A stretch of 39,633 nt of DNA from assembly GCA_040754395.1 (NCBI GenBank), contig JBFMCL010000001.1, positions 1-39,633 of the forward strand. The letters are read 5' to 3'. This DNA comes from Nitrospirota bacterium (GTDB lineage Bacteria; Nitrospirota; Thermodesulfovibrionia; Thermodesulfovibrionales; SM23-35). This document shows, piece after piece, positions 200-6,244 of the stretch. Numbering within the stretch: position 1 is the stretch's first letter; every line of letters begins with the position of its first letter. Position numbers and translations under genes: made by a program. Under the pieces are notes generated by a model. That model was not told the DNA's origin. It made no database searches and worked only from the letters and a program-made list of their open reading frames with translations.

Positions 200-1924
200 T
201 TAGCGATTCTTATGGCATAAGACCCCACCGGAGTCTACTAAGAAGCCAAAGGCTGATAGGACTTCAGCTTGGGTCTTCGTTGGTATCTCTATTTGACGGT
301 TTGCTTTTCTTCCGCCGTCTTTCATAACCAACACTGAATGCAGGTGTCGCATGTCCTTCATAACGTCTTCCGCAGTGCGACGGATGCCGGCTGCATTGAG
401 TCGCAGCTCGATCTGGCGCAGATATGTCATAGCAACAACACAACTAAAGAGATGACACCGTATTTTGCTGTCTGTCCAATGTCTGATGGGTTGCATGGCA
501 ACCAGATCATCCTCCTTGCTTAGCCGGAATCGGTTTTCTACTTGCCATCGGTCGAGACTGGCTTCTACGATCTCCGTCGTAGTCCAATCCGTATTGTCAG
601 TGATTATGATATTCTTTCCAAACATCAAGCGCTTTCGCTCCACAGCGATCACATCTTTGCGGAAGCTCATGGCCAGACCGTCCGCCGTCTGTGAGAACTC
701 CAGGGCATAGAGATTACTATGCACGTGGAAACGTTCACAGAGGCGCAAGTATCGCTCTATGATTGCTGCCTGTTTGCGCCAGTGAGGCTCTTTATTACGC
801 ACCTTTGATCTCATTGCAAGCAGTTCCTGTCGTATTGCTTCCAGCTTGCTGTCAAGCGTATAGGATTGCTTTCTTTCTGTTACAGGGTTGTACGTTATTA
901 CAACCGCCCGTTGCTTGCCCCAATATTCACCCTTAGTGCGATAAACCAGCATCCGATCGTCTTCTTTTCCCTTCTCTGCCAGTCGCCGGTTCTTTTCAGT
1001 ATCGGCCGGCTCAAAAGCATCCAGAGGCGTTGTCGCCAAATCTTCGGCAAAGTAGGTTGAATAGGACGTCACAAAGTGAATCCGGGAATGTTCGTCTATC
1101 CAAGCGAAATTGTTCTCAGAGTTCATTCCCTTATCTACAATTACGGTAAGCTTCTGTTTGGTCTTATCAAGCCCACAGACAACACCGAACATCTCGTCCA
1201 TTACTGTCTCGAACTGCATACTGTCGTGGATATTGCCTGGATAGGCGCAATAATATAAAGGCAGGCGGCTGTCCCGCGACACCAAGAGGCCCAGTCCGAT
1301 CTGCCGCAGATTATGTCGCCCCTCCTTGTTCTTCCCCCTCTTAGCGAGATCAGAGGGCATATCGCTTGCCATAAAGGTGTAGTAGTTTGTGGTATCAAAC
1401 AGAAGACAATCTGCATTAGGAGATTCAAGCTCCCAAATCCGCTCAAAGAACCGCCGGGCGATTTTCTTAAGTGCCGGTTCCGATACTCTGTCCCATTTAT
1501 CCCAATAACGCTGGCTTGTAAGCTCTCTAATATCCACAGGACGAATCTGCTGTATTGCCGTTCGTTCATACCATTGGACGAGCTTATTCTTGCTCGTAGT
1601 CTCACACATCCGGTTCCATGCGCAATACAGAAAGTACTCTCCGACTGAAGGACCTTTTTCGTTAGCTCCTACGGGGATCACTGAATCGACAATGCCCACC
1701 AAATCGATGTCTCGACTAATCTGATCAGCAAGCCACAGTGAGCCGAACTCTTCTACCCTGAGCTTTATTGCCGATTCTCCGGTGCCCGATACGAGGCCCG
1801 CGACTTTCTCCGGCGATCCTATATAGACCTGAGAAACCACAGTGGGCTTCCCGCCGACCCTAGCAATCTCGCGGACATAGAGGTAGGGTCTTCCTTTTTT
1901 TGTTTTAATATGGAAATGCGCCAT
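200..1924 (-). CDS. IS1634-family DDE transposase
   Basis: This 574-residue protein would cut and join the ends of the surrounding insertion sequence. The catalytic acidic triad of the IS4-like RNase H fold is visible. The first Asp is in CLLFDTTNYYTF, the second in TVIVDKGMNSENN, and the Glu in the SLDRWQVENRFRLSKE segment near the C-terminus. A basic N-terminal stretch (HFHIKTKKGRPYLYV) opens the protein, as is common in this family. Length is normal and there is no frameshift, so the copy may still be active. The start is the ATG at 1924, only five bases after a consensus -10 box, so no Shine-Dalgarno can be present on that transcript. It is encoded on the opposite strand to any read-through from the left edge of the window. 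Confidence 0.93.
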   Translation of the reverse strand: MAHFHIKTKKGRPYLYVREIARVGGKPTVVSQVYIGSPEKVAGLVSGTGESAIKLRVEEFGSLWLADQISRDIDLVGIVDSVIPVGANEKGPSVGEYFLYCAWNRMCETTSKNKLVQWYERTAIQQIRPVDIRELTSQRYWDKWDRVSEPALKKIARRFFERIWELESPNADCLLFDTTNYYTFMASDMPSDLAKRGKNKEGRHNLRQIGLGLLVSRDSRLPLYYCAYPGNIHDSMQFETVMDEMFGVVCGLDKTKQKLTVIVDKGMNSENNFAWIDEHSRIHFVTSYSTYFAEDLATTPLDAFEPADTEKNRRLAEKGKEDDRMLVYRTKGEYWGKQRAVVITYNPVTERKQSYTLDSKLEAIRQELLAMRSKVRNKEPHWRKQAAIIERYLRLCERFHVHSNLYALEFSQTADGLAMSFRKDVIAVERKRLMFGKNIIITDNTDWTTTEIVEASLDRWQVENRFRLSKEDDLVAMQPIRHWTDSKIRCHLFSCVVAMTYLRQIELRLNAAGIRRTAEDVMKDMRHLHSVLVMKDGGRKANRQIEIPTKTQAEVLSAFGFLVDSGGVLCHKNR

Positions 1925-2171: not shown

Positions 2172-2561
2172 TCATTTTCGAACCACAAGAAGCGGCATAA
2201 GGGCAAACACTCCGAGCAGAATGCAGTAAACTGTTCCCGACACAGGATCTCGGCTTGCAAGATAGTCTCTGATCGACAAACCCTGAAGCCACAACACGAG
2301 CGTAAATTCTGCTACCAGCAGAAGGCCAAGCGCAACGCAACCAATACCAAGCCGGATAGGTATTCTGTAAGGCACTGTCAGACGACGCATTATCCACCGC
2401 GCTGCAACAATGATGACCACGAACATGACAGGCGCCTCTATAAGTTCAGCTATTCTTGTGCCCAATCGTGGAACGACCCATAGTATACGAATGGGGCCAA
2501 GAACAAATCCCGCTCCAAATACGAGTGCGAAGTAAAGCACGCCAGCTTTTATAATCCGCAT
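2172..2561 (-). CDS. Small conserved membrane protein, function unknown
   Basis: This 129-residue protein is mostly hydrophobic with about four membrane segments (roughly residues 3-25, 38-58, 70-95 and 105-127), separated by short Arg-rich turns such as ARWIMRRL. I recognise the general type, a short membrane protein opening MRIIKAGVLYFALVFGAGFVLGP, as widespread in Gram-negative genomes, but know no function for it. A GGAG lies about 10 bases before the ATG. It stands alone between an insertion sequence and the large surface-protein gene and has no obvious partner. No catalytic motif is visible. Confidence 0.75.
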   Translation of the reverse strand: MRIIKAGVLYFALVFGAGFVLGPIRILWVVPRLGTRIAELIEAPVMFVVIIVAARWIMRRLTVPYRIPIRLGIGCVALGLLLVAEFTLVLWLQGLSIRDYLASRDPVSGTVYCILLGVFALMPLLVVRK

Positions 2562-2720
2562 AATGTATCGTTCTCCAGTGGGCCGGATTTCGTTTTTTTA
2601 TTGAGGGATTTCCCGCGCTACTCGGCACAATTATATCAGGTTTAAGTAAGAAGTGTTTCGCAAAGTTATCTGTCAAAAGGGTTTGATGTGTGAAAGAATA
2701 CAGAACGGAGAAAAATGTCC

Positions 2721-2772
2721 TGCCGGACATGACAGGCGGAACATTGCAACCGCTCCGCCTGTTTTTCCGGCA
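2721..2772 (-). terminator. Nested hairpin terminator after the surface-protein gene
   Basis: An inner 8-bp stem, CAGGCGGA (2733-2740) with TCCGCCTG (2754-2761), sits inside an outer 7-bp stem, TGCCGGA (2721-2727) with TCCGGCA (2766-2772). It lies just past the stop of the minus-strand gene at 2785. The inner hairpin is followed by T5 on the plus strand and the full structure by ATTTTT on the minus strand, so it may work in both directions. Confidence 0.6.
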
Positions 2773-2784
2773 GACTAATGTAAG

Positions 2785-4998
2785 CTAATGAACTGTCTGA
2801 CCTGTTCCGGCAGAGCGTACTGGCCAGACATATAAGATAGTGCTTTTCTTTGTGGAGGATGTCGTTGCTCTTTTCATATCAACTATCCATCCCTGGGTAT
2901 TCGACAACAAGGCCGAGGTAGACGTCCAGTAAGAAGAAGCCTTGATGTTCCTGAAGCTGCTTGCATTCAGCCAGGCAGAAGAATCGAGGACTCCGAAGTT
3001 GATAAGGCTGTCAAGTTCCCTGACATTCGGCATTCTCCAGTCGGTATAGTTTCCGTGATAATCAGCGCAGGGGTACCTTCCCGGGTTTGCGTTCAGGTCC
3101 GCTATGGTATTCAGGGCACCATTCCAGTTCTTCCTGTTTAAACATGATCCGTCCTTTAACCACATGAGCCCGGTCAGGGTATCCGTGACTGTACCGCCCC
3201 CGTTATCAAGGAATCTCGGCTCAGGCCATACAGCTCCTGCCTGTACAGAACCGTCGTCACCAGGGAAATAGCTTACAGTCTGACCTGTTACGGGAACATC
3301 ATAGCGATTCCCCTGAGATATACTGCGCACAGCCATGATGTGGTTGGTTTTTGACTTCAGACCCGGAGACTCCATTCCATTATACAGGTTAATCAGCCAT
3401 GCCTGGGTTGTTCCTGAAGCAGTTGTCGATGACCAGTAGTTAGCGCCTTTCACGTTGGTGAATCCGTTTACATTCATCCATGAAGAGGAATTAAGAACCC
3501 CATAGTTGACAAGGCTGTCAAGTTCCCTGACATTCGGCATTCTCCAGTCGGTATAGTTTCCGTTGTAACCTTTACACAAGTATTTCCCCGGGTTTGCGTT
3601 CAGATCCGCTATGGTATTCAGGGCACCGTTCCAATTCTTTTTGTTTAAACATGATCCGTCCTTTAACCACATGAGCCCGGTCAGGGTATCCGTGACTGTA
3701 CCATCCCCGTTATCAAAAATTCTCGGCTCAGGCCATACAGCTCCTGCCTGTACAGAACCGTCGTCACCAGGGAAATAGCTTACTGACTGGCCTGTCCTCG
3801 GCAGATTGACACTATCTGTTAGATCCAGCCTTCCCGACCCTTCCAATGGAATTACAGTTTTCGGGGTATCAGGATCGTTTGAGGGGACAACAAGCCATGC
3901 ACTCTTAATGCCTCCTGTCGCAGGTGAGAAATAGACGCTCACAGAGCATCTGTCCCCGGGTGCCACCGACCGTCCAGAGCAGTTATCATCCAGCAGAAGG
4001 AACTCAGCGGAACCGGTTATCACACTGGAACCGATAACAAGATTCTCTGTCCCCATATTCGTTACGATAAACACCTGAAAAACAGAATCTTTTCCGACCA
4101 GCACATTCCCGTAGCTATAAGAGGAAGGAGTGACCGAGATATCAGGATAAGTGACAGTTGCGAAACTTGCAGTAATGGTATGGTGACCTGTCACATTCGT
4201 AAATGTATACGTTGTAACCGCACCCTTTGAACTGCCGTCCACTTTCACATCTGCAATGGCATACCCGGTGTTCGGGGTGATGGTATATGTCTGGGATGCG
4301 CCGTGGTTCACCGTTACTGTCCCGGAAGGGCTGATGCTCCCGCCTGCCCCTGCCGTCGCCGTAAGGGTAAATGTCTTTATGGCAAATGTCGCAGTTACAC
4401 TCTTTGCAGCATCCATAGTCAATGCACATGCCCCCGTCCCTGCACATGCCCCGGACCAGCCGCTGAAGAGAGAATTCCCATCCGGCGATGCCGATAAAGT
4501 GACTGACGTCCCTGCAGTGTAGGCCTCTGTACAGTCAGTGCCGCAGGAGACGCCCGCAGGAGCAGAGATAACTGTCCCTGTGCCTGTCCCGCCCTTGCCT
4601 ACTGTAAGAATATACTGCGGGAGGGGGGGAGGGGACATTGCTCTGCTGATTTCGTTGGAGTATTGGCTCTCTTTTTGTGCGGTATTGTATGCAGTAGCAG
4701 CAAAGTAGTAGGTAACCCCATCGGATAGATTTGGAACTGTATAGGTCGTAACATTTCCGACATCGATGCTTTGGGTATAGTTACGCGAGACCGTTCCATA
4801 ATACACCTTATACCCTGCAAGACCGGTAAGGGGTGTGCCGTCCTCGTTTGCTATGGGGGGATTCCATATAAGTGTTGTTTGGGCAGCATTTCCCTCCCCG
4901 GCATGAAGGAATATGCTGAAAACTGAAACAATAAGTGTGAATGCTAGGAAAAAGTGTTTCCATCGGTATGCTCCGGTTATTGCATACGATCTTTTCAT
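2785..4998 (-). CDS. Secreted multidomain surface protein with FN3, repeat, ASH-like and two DUF1566 domains
   Basis: This 737-residue exported protein probably acts at the cell surface in adhesion or ligand binding, by inference from its domains. A signal peptide occupies about residues 1-39 (basic start, hydrophobic FFLAFTLIVSVFSIF, cleavage near GNAA). It is followed by a fibronectin type III domain (about 40-122), two bacterial repeat domains of the GWSGAC...VTATF and SISPSG...ITASF kind (about 128-282), and a choice-of-anchor D/ASH-like domain (about 286-388). Two DUF1566 domains (about 395-565 and 566-737) carry the typical GLMWLKDGS and DWRMPNVREL motifs. The DUF1566 copies are nearly identical, also at DNA level, with a 507-bp offset. 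A strong GGAGG precedes the ATG. The long leader holds two c-di-GMP riboswitches, so expression should follow the second messenger. The gene ends at a strong hairpin and appears monocistronic. Confidence 0.88.
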   Translation of the reverse strand: MKRSYAITGAYRWKHFFLAFTLIVSVFSIFLHAGEGNAAQTTLIWNPPIANEDGTPLTGLAGYKVYYGTVSRNYTQSIDVGNVTTYTVPNLSDGVTYYFAATAYNTAQKESQYSNEISRAMSPPPLPQYILTVGKGGTGTGTVISAPAGVSCGTDCTEAYTAGTSVTLSASPDGNSLFSGWSGACAGTGACALTMDAAKSVTATFAIKTFTLTATAGAGGSISPSGTVTVNHGASQTYTITPNTGYAIADVKVDGSSKGAVTTYTFTNVTGHHTITASFATVTYPDISVTPSSYSYGNVLVGKDSVFQVFIVTNMGTENLVIGSSVITGSAEFLLLDDNCSGRSVAPGDRCSVSVYFSPATGGIKSAWLVVPSNDPDTPKTVIPLEGSGRLDLTDSVNLPRTGQSVSYFPGDDGSVQAGAVWPEPRIFDNGDGTVTDTLTGLMWLKDGSCLNKKNWNGALNTIADLNANPGKYLCKGYNGNYTDWRMPNVRELDSLVNYGVLNSSSWMNVNGFTNVKGANYWSSTTASGTTQAWLINLYNGMESPGLKSKTNHIMAVRSISQGNRYDVPVTGQTVSYFPGDDGSVQAGAVWPEPRFLDNGGGTVTDTLTGLMWLKDGSCLNRKNWNGALNTIADLNANPGRYPCADYHGNYTDWRMPNVRELDSLINFGVLDSSAWLNASSFRNIKASSYWTSTSALLSNTQGWIVDMKRATTSSTKKSTILYVWPVRSAGTGQTVH

Positions 4999-5001
4999 TG
5001 T

Positions 5002-5057
5002 AGTACCTCCCTCGGTTTTGTTCTCCAGCCGTGCGAGATGCAGCGTAAGGAAGTACT
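5002..5057 (-). promoter_or_regulatory. Shine-Dalgarno sequestering helix downstream of riboswitch 2
   Basis: Directly after the second aptamer, AGUACUUCC (minus strand, 5057-5049) can pair over nine bases, including one G-U, with GGAGGUACU (5010-5002), which contains the Shine-Dalgarno of the surface-protein gene. This is a plausible translational expression platform. How ligand binding would switch the pairing is not evident from the sequence. Confidence 0.55.
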
Positions 5058-5061
5058 GAAT

Positions 5062-5142
5062 CCGTCCGGCAGCCCTGCGACCATATCCCCCAGGGACTTA
5101 GGCCAGTAGCTTTGCGTCCAACCCTTTCGGATTGTTTGCCTT
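5062..5142 (-). promoter_or_regulatory. c-di-GMP-I (GEMM-I) riboswitch aptamer 2
   Basis: Read on the minus strand this shows the GEMM-I hallmarks in order. They are GGCAAAC; a 6-bp P2 stem capped by a GAAA tetraloop (CAAUCC/GGGUUG); GGACGCAAAGC; and GGCCUAAG. A P3 hairpin (UCCC/GGGA) follows, then UAUGG and the 3' strand GCUGCCGG. CCUAAG with UAUGG is the classic 11-nt GAAA tetraloop receptor, so the P2-P3 docking expected of the fold is present. Aligned with the Vibrio Vc2 aptamer, the position equal to G20 is G, which favours c-di-GMP over cGAMP. A clear P1 helix could not be drawn. Confidence 0.85.
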
Positions 5143-5154
5143 TTTCGTTTTTTC

Positions 5155-5198
5155 CACAAAAAAGCCTGTTTCCTCCAAGGGAAACAGGCTTTTTTGTG
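5155..5198 (-). terminator. Strong intrinsic terminator between the two riboswitch aptamers
   Basis: A perfect 19-bp stem (5155-5173 with 5180-5198) with a 6-nt loop begins and ends in A/T tracts, so on the minus strand the 3' arm ends in U6. It lies just downstream of aptamer 1 and about 15 nt upstream of aptamer 2, where it is best explained as the transcriptional expression platform of aptamer 1. A leader segment (GUUUCC, 5306-5301) could pair with the 3' arm as an antiterminator, but this is speculative. Confidence 0.75.
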
Positions 5199-5215
5199 CA
5201 GACAAAGCTCTGCTT

Positions 5216-5300
5216 CTTCGGCAACCCGGCTATCCTGATCTTGCGCCCCCCGCAGGACCCGTGGCTTTGTGCCCCCTGGTTACCCAGGGGTTACCTTTTC
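5216..5300 (-). promoter_or_regulatory. c-di-GMP-I (GEMM-I) riboswitch aptamer 1
   Basis: On the minus strand this reads GGUAA; a 7-bp P2 stem CCCCUGG/CCAGGGG capped by the GNRA loop GUAA; GCACAAAGCCACGGG; a P3 stem UCCUG/CAGGA; and the highly conserved 3' strand AUAGCCGGGUUGCCGAAG. Most GEMM-I landmarks are present in order. It differs from aptamer 2 in having GUAA rather than GAAA, no 11-nt receptor, and CACAAAGCC in place of CGCAAAGCC. The G20-equivalent is G. No convincing promoter was seen upstream in the AT-rich 5300-5420 stretch. Confidence 0.78.
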
Positions 5301-5544
5301 GGAAACCTTACTGCTCTTATGTATCTTTAAAAAATCTGCTGAGCTTATTATTCTTTGCTCTTGATTATTATTTTAATGAGATGTTTGCCGGATTTCTGTG
5401 ACTGCCGTCACGCAGAAAAAATTTTTTTATGCCATGAAAATTTGCCTGCCGGGGAACGAAAAGAAGTCCCTGTGAAGCATTCAGGGGATGTGGGAGAGGA
5501 AAGACACTATGCGGGACAAAAAACTGTAGGTCGGGTAATACACC

Positions 5545-5935: not shown

Positions 5936-6244
5936 CTACGCAGACTTTTTCTCCGCACTGCTCAGCAATTCCTTCAGGATCGTTCTCTGCTCACTGTTCA
6001 TGTCGACAAACATGACGCCCATTCCGATTCCCGGCTGACAGTAACGAACACGTCCCCTGAAGGTGATATTTTCCCCCTTGAATGGTATGGTCACCTTAAT
6101 GATGCTGTTTATATCAAAATGCTGGATTGCAGAAACATAAAGGCCTCCCTCACTGATATCCATGCACGAGCATACGGTCGTTCCATCTATCAGGATATCT
6201 TCCCTGTAAGGAAATCTCTCGTATTTCCTGCGTTCTTCCGTCAT
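5936..6244 (-). CDS. PilZ-domain protein, c-di-GMP binding
   Basis: This is a 102-residue single-domain PilZ protein. The c-di-GMP contact motifs are visible: an N-terminal Arg cluster (RRKYERFPYR), which supplies the RxxxR element, and DISEGG, which matches the D/NxSxxG element. The remainder (GLYVSAIQHFDINSIIKVTIPF...FRGRVRYCQPGIGMGVMF) follows the six-strand barrel pattern. It likely acts as a cytoplasmic receptor passing c-di-GMP signals to a partner protein that cannot be named from this window. It has its own consensus-like promoter. Together with the riboswitches about 600 bp away and the HD-GYP gene near 37 kb it marks this stretch as c-di-GMP rich. Confidence 0.88.
   Translation of the reverse strand: MTEERRKYERFPYREDILIDGTTVCSCMDISEGGLYVSAIQHFDINSIIKVTIPFKGENITFRGRVRYCQPGIGMGVMFVDMNSEQRTILKELLSSAEKKSA

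Follow-up and report, generated by a model that had tools for sequence, protein, structure and literature searches.

Two c-di-GMP-I aptamers in series, each with its own predicted expression platform, before a surface-type protein gene in Thermodesulfovibrionales

The locus and its genomic context

The analyzed stretch of DNA, hereafter the window, comprises 39,633 nucleotides from a Nitrospirota bacterium of the order Thermodesulfovibrionales. On its minus strand, a leader with two c-di-GMP-I aptamers precedes a gene for a surface-type protein. The features of the locus are as follows.

2785..4998, minus strand: target gene, encoding a 737-aa secreted-looking protein (Pfam scan)
5002..5010, minus strand: Shine-Dalgarno (SD) sequence GGAGGUACU of the target gene (sequence, pairing test)
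5028..5070, minus strand: alternative hairpin Y, pairing the pocket strand GCCG 5070-5067 with CGGC 5031-5028 and enclosing the anti-SD
5049..5057, minus strand: anti-Shine-Dalgarno (anti-SD) AGUACUUCC, covarying in paralogues
5065..5150, minus strand: aptamer 2, c-di-GMP-I (RF01051, cmscan)
5155..5198, minus strand: intrinsic terminator, a perfect 19-bp hairpin (sequence; hairpin -22.3 kcal/mol)
5204..5216, minus strand: switch strand GAAGCAG-A-GCUUU, either the P1 3' strand or an antiterminator with 5192-5181
5216..5304, minus strand: aptamer 1, c-di-GMP-I (GEMM-I; RF01051 and RF03167, pocket bases from the alignment)
5302..5306, minus strand: P1 5' strand GUUUC of aptamer 1 (sequence), pairing with GAAGC 5216-5212 in the ligand-bound form
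5936..6244, minus strand: PilZ-domain protein (PF07238, E 1.7e-13)

The start of the target ORF agrees with the gene start at 4998 given in a first-pass annotation of this DNA. The Pfam scan assigns to the protein an fn3 domain, two InlB-type repeats, an Ig-like stretch, and two Lcl_C (DUF1566) domains, and a hydrophobic N-terminal stretch suggests that it is secreted. Downstream of the target, a 574-aa ORF (200-1924, minus strand) looks transposase-like by eye. The PilZ gene lies directly upstream of the leader, not in it. Since PilZ is a c-di-GMP receptor family and the genome contains 24 GGDEF matches, c-di-GMP signaling is present in this organism.

The genome (2.98 Mb, 75 contigs) contains seven c-di-GMP-I aptamers, arranged as three tandem pairs and one single aptamer. 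The pairs are located in the window and on contig C12 (72258-72492 and 75160-75398), and all three precede genes of paralogous secreted-looking proteins that combine fn3 with InlB-type repeats and end in Lcl_C or Golvesin_C. In one paralogue (L015 4737-7094, minus strand), fn3 is separated from the repeats by a run of more than 40 prolines. A fourth fn3/Lcl_C paralogue (L015 7517-9400, minus strand) lies beside both tandem cassettes of contig C12 and has no detectable aptamer. The single aptamer, on contig C35 (L016 3783-3863, plus strand), has a terminator-like hairpin behind it; since the 5' arm of this hairpin and the aptamer overlap, the layout is of the ON type.

Two aptamers with ordinary c-di-GMP-I pockets

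The presence of two GEMM-I-like aptamers in series, proposed at first from the sequence by eye, is borne out by covariance models, both aptamers scoring above the RF01051 cut-off of 35 bits. Aptamer 2 is a full-length match (5150-5065, minus strand) with 83.9 bits and E 2.7e-15; aptamer 1 scores 62.6 bits. The pocket contacts G20, A47, and C92, named in PMC4744006, are retained in both: they correspond to 5295, 5268, and 5221 in aptamer 1 and to 5140, 5113, and 5069 in aptamer 2 (cmscan alignment; we placed the Vc2 numbers on the Rfam alignment). The loops and receptors are also as described, with a GAAA loop (5128-5125) and the 11-nt receptor CCUAAG/UAUGG in aptamer 2 and a GUAA loop (5283-5280) in aptamer 1.

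One could suppose that the two aptamers sense different ligands, aptamer 1 being a variant of the c-di-GMP-I-GGC class or a cGAMP sensor, so that the leader would act as a two-input gate. Indeed, cmscan names aptamer 1 (5304-5216, minus strand) RF03167, c-di-GMP-I-GGC, a family of the same clan as c-di-GMP-I. The two models are tied on it, however, at 62.4 bits for RF03167 and 62.6 for RF01051, and the RF03167 cut-off of 59 is also passed by all seven aptamers of the genome, including every aptamer 2. Because canonical aptamers pass too, the RF03167 score of aptamer 1 reflects clan similarity. The GGC consensus of Rfam has G at the position of A47, whereas the corresponding base of aptamer 1, at 5268, is A; hence its pocket is that of an ordinary c-di-GMP-I aptamer. 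The A47 base and the tied scores rule out the GGC variant ligand, and sensing of cGAMP (GEMM-Ib) is ruled out by G20 in both aptamers, as cGAMP sensors have A at position 20 (PMC9481103). A two-ligand gate thus seems very improbable.

The aptamers are separated by 65 nt. The scan of the minus strand detected no promoter-like site between them; the sole weak match lies upstream, at 5376-5347, and is at chance level. A transcript start between the aptamers would place them on separate RNAs; in the bi-mechanism reading, both would reside on one RNA and serve one ligand. They share 60% identity with each other, versus 77-93% (aptamer 1) and 88-90% (aptamer 2) with their counterparts in the closest tandem leaders. 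By these values, one aptamer cannot be a recent copy of the other; the two are old and distinct, in line with the earlier view that they are no recent duplication.

A termination platform followed by a translation platform

Aptamer 1 is followed by the intrinsic terminator. The first-pass annotation had described a perfect 19-bp hairpin with U6. The 19 bp are exact (arms 5198-5180/5173-5155), but U6 (5163-5158) sits inside the stem, where it pairs with A6. The effective terminator is the 10-bp stem GCCUGUUUCC/GGAAACAGGC (5189-5180/5173-5164) followed by this U-run. It could not be assigned to the PilZ gene, as that gene ends at 5936, leaving more than 600 nt before aptamer 1, and the aptamer precedes the terminator.

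The 3' strand of P1 can pair either within the aptamer or with the 5' arm of the terminator. In the window, the latter, antiterminator duplex has an energy of -14.1 kcal/mol, equaled or surpassed by 0.4% of shuffles. Among 24 loci with aptamer-1-type leaders and a terminator, this pairing beats 95% of shuffles in 19, which argues for the proposed transcription-type platform. The antiterminator helix is formed by GAARCAG, a single bulged base, and GCUU against AAGC-CUGUUUC, and the P1 5' strand GUUUC is found in all 23 tabulated leaders. The core of the helix is conserved, not covarying, and its outer part shows a few compensatory changes (GCUU/AAGC, ACUU/AGGU, GCUC/GGGC); common ancestry of the terminator could account for a part of this conservation. 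By equilibrium energy, the window terminator is more stable than the antiterminator at every length tested, so control at the first stage would have to be kinetic. In three close copies (C12a, C12b, and G008), the antiterminator leads the terminator until the U-run is made. The U-run of the G008 terminator (L017) is broken, CUUUCUG.

Aptamer 2 is followed by the anti-SD. Its nine-base pairing with the SD, also noted in the first reading, is exact (5057-5049 with 5010-5002), and none of 300 dinucleotide shuffles matches it. The pairing covaries in the paralogues, as GCACUUCC/GGAGGUGC and GUAUUUCC/GGAGAUAC. Over the gene family, the best pairing of the SD with the leader falls below 0.05 against dinucleotide shuffles in 20 of 25 leaders; the anti-SD/SD helix is not significant in this test in the tandem relatives L080 and L050. 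The competing structure is hairpin Y. When the segment bounded by the pocket strand and the SD is folded, z averages -2.6 over 25 loci and is a modest -1.28 for the window alone, and in structures read by eye the pocket CC is paired in a hairpin-Y-type fold at about 21 of the 25. Hairpin Y uses C92 and is therefore incompatible with ligand-bound aptamer 2. These observations point to a translation-type platform at the second stage. Blocking the pocket of aptamer 2 costs 4.5 kcal/mol in the window. Enforcing aptamer 2 raises the predicted pairing of the SD from 0.27 to 1.00 in the paralogue C12a and from 0.48 to 0.85 in G008.

Covariance models, together with the comparison of up to 25 loci, thus support the two-stage reading, a termination platform and then a translation platform. 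We interpret the leader as a bi-mechanism tandem riboswitch in which two c-di-GMP-I aptamers have one platform each, both most likely OFF (probability of about 0.6). The aptamers, the terminator, the anti-SD, and the mutually exclusive pairings are present in the sequence and recur in relatives; binding of the ligand, the sign and kinetics of the response, and its biological role are predicted from them. The probable direction, judging from the mutually exclusive pairings, is repression at both levels. In the absence of the ligand, the 3' strand of P1 in aptamer 1 (GAAGCAG.GCUUU) would hold the terminator's 5' arm (AAAGC.CUGUUUC), and RNA polymerase would read through. Binding of c-di-GMP would fix P1 (GUUUC/GAAGC), release the 5' arm, and allow the terminator to form. 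In transcripts that have passed the first stage, unliganded aptamer 2 would leave GCCG free to pair with the downstream CGGC, burying the anti-SD and permitting the ribosome to bind; with c-di-GMP, the pocket strand would be claimed by the ligand, and the released anti-SD would cover the SD. As a net result, the fn3/Lcl_C surface-type protein would be shut off sharply, at two levels, at high c-di-GMP. A steeper response from the series assumes similar affinities of both aptamers.

Another scenario is that only one of the stages responds in cells and that the other sets the basal level, acting as a constitutive terminator or as an SD hairpin formed by default. Folding of the window leader at equilibrium is consistent with it: the terminator is favored and the SD closed with or without ligand, the SD being 98% paired in the ligand-free prediction, so that almost no switching is seen. 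For the window, such folding was accordingly not accepted as a demonstration of switching, and comparative pairing was used as evidence instead. A precedent is provided by Bc1 of B. thuringiensis, which binds c-di-GMP while downstream expression is unresponsive (PMC11218506). However, the pockets of both aptamers are intact, and each alternative pairing is seen again in other genera. This speaks for selection on both stages and makes a single responsive stage rather unlikely.

Recurrence, response sign, and relation to known systems

The order of a terminator-linked aptamer followed by an SD-linked one is shared by all three cassettes of the window's genome and by five further genomes from the order (G008, L080 of G067, G063, G155, and L050), always before genes of fn3-type secreted proteins. 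G008 (contig JAVHLL010000003, Thermodesulfovibrionales bacterium Ess09-11) belongs to the same family and another genus. In these eight tandem leaders, the first aptamers are 72-93% identical to each other and the second ones 73-91%, except the divergent L050 (60-70%), whereas the two aptamers of one leader share 46-63%. The higher identity within types than between them indicates that the cassette is old and is inherited or duplicated as a unit; with three cassettes in one genome, the pair has been copied as a whole.

Several leaders show further features. In eight (L060, L080, L112 of G063, L036, L147, L024, L030, and L050), a segment located after P1 and before the terminator can pair, along as many as about 20 bases, with the aptamer's 5' half. 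It changes together with the aptamer (CUCUG/CAGAG, CUCCGG/CCGGAG), scores at or below 0.025 of shuffles in all eight, and could unfold the unliganded aptamer. The window has no such unfolding strand; 0.27 of shuffles are as good there. Four single aptamer-1-type leaders (L134, L136, L020, and L140) have no terminator of the usual type and a long anti-SD/SD pairing, and in the last three the P1 3' strand can pair with the downstream strand around the anti-SD; all four resemble translational OFF switches. A plain doublet is found in G148:C388 (L152), with the same terminator after each of two near-identical c-di-GMP-I riboswitches in series.

A series of this kind, but differing in its first platform, is present in Oryzomonas L059 and Geobacteraceae L051. 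L051 (D180_maxbin.001, 2181-2895, plus strand) carries four consecutive c-di-GMP-I aptamers upstream of an fn3 gene; ON-type terminators accompany the first three, which are near-identical, and the fourth has an SD-type platform. In both leaders, the 5' arm of the first-stage terminator lies within the aptamer (AGCCGGGUCG/CGACCCGGCU), and in G042 this arm overlaps the 3' strand of P1. By sequence reading, these three loci (L059, aptamers 1-3 of L051, and aptamer 1 of G042) have the ON layout in front of a last stage that keeps the anti-SD.

These relatives bear on the possibility that the window leader is itself of mixed sign, with one ON stage and one OFF stage, which would make expression peak at intermediate c-di-GMP or depend on timing. 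Incoherent control of transcription and translation by the single c-di-GMP riboswitch Bc1 of B. thuringiensis (PMC11218506) is a further example of this kind. In the window, however, the first stage has the OFF layout, since P1 comes before the terminator and the 3' strand of P1 is complementary to the terminator's 5' arm, and the same layout is seen in the two paralogue cassettes and in G008. Mixed sign is thus unlikely for the window leader, and repression at both stages is the preferred reading. For the gene family, we tentatively suggest, as a possibility well below even odds, that its tandem leaders form a signal-shaping set: OFF/OFF in Thermodesulfovibrionales, and ON-type antitermination followed by an OFF-type SD stage in the Geobacterales relatives L059 and L051 (three ON stages) and in G042, the latter group being band-pass. 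If both stages work, such sign-mixed leaders would pass only intermediate c-di-GMP.

The closest precedent is provided by the SAM-II/SAM-V bi-mechanism tandems (PMC9481103). There, too, a riboswitch before an intrinsic terminator comes first and control of the ribosome-binding site (RBS) second, with one ligand and control predicted at both levels. Unlike the SAM tandems, the window has two aptamers of one class, c-di-GMP-I, another ligand, and a surface-type protein as the target. Among the tandem riboswitches surveyed in PMC9481103, c-di-GMP-I doublets form the largest group (347 doublets, besides 12 triplets). They are classed there as pseudo-cooperative and explained only as sharper, digital switches; the bi-mechanism list of the same survey consists of SAM systems alone. 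As in these doublets and triplets, and in the c-di-GMP-I triplet Bc3-5 of B. thuringiensis (PMC4759541), at least two complete riboswitches stand before one gene, but the window leader has two different platforms. The first stage resembles Cd1 of C. difficile (PMC9262584), an experimentally demonstrated transcriptional OFF switch in which the P1 3' strand (A) and the terminator 5' arm (T) form an antiterminator that is only transiently stable, and the ligand frees T. Cd1, in contrast, is a single riboswitch, before flagellar genes. Bc1 likewise combines c-di-GMP-I control of transcription and translation, but through a single aptamer, which has a long platform and two terminators, and its control is reported as incoherent and unresponsive in vivo, whereas in the window each of the two aptamers has one platform. 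No c-di-GMP-I bi-mechanism tandem was found in the literature searched, mostly non-subscription journals. The combination is apparently undescribed for c-di-GMP sensors, both types of parts being known, and some of the 347 doublets may share the layout.

The locus offers separate identified sites for disabling each stage, together with natural relatives whose first stage is apparently of the opposite sign. With a conserved cassette of termination followed by RBS control, bi-mechanism control would reach beyond SAM to a second messenger behind lifestyle changes.
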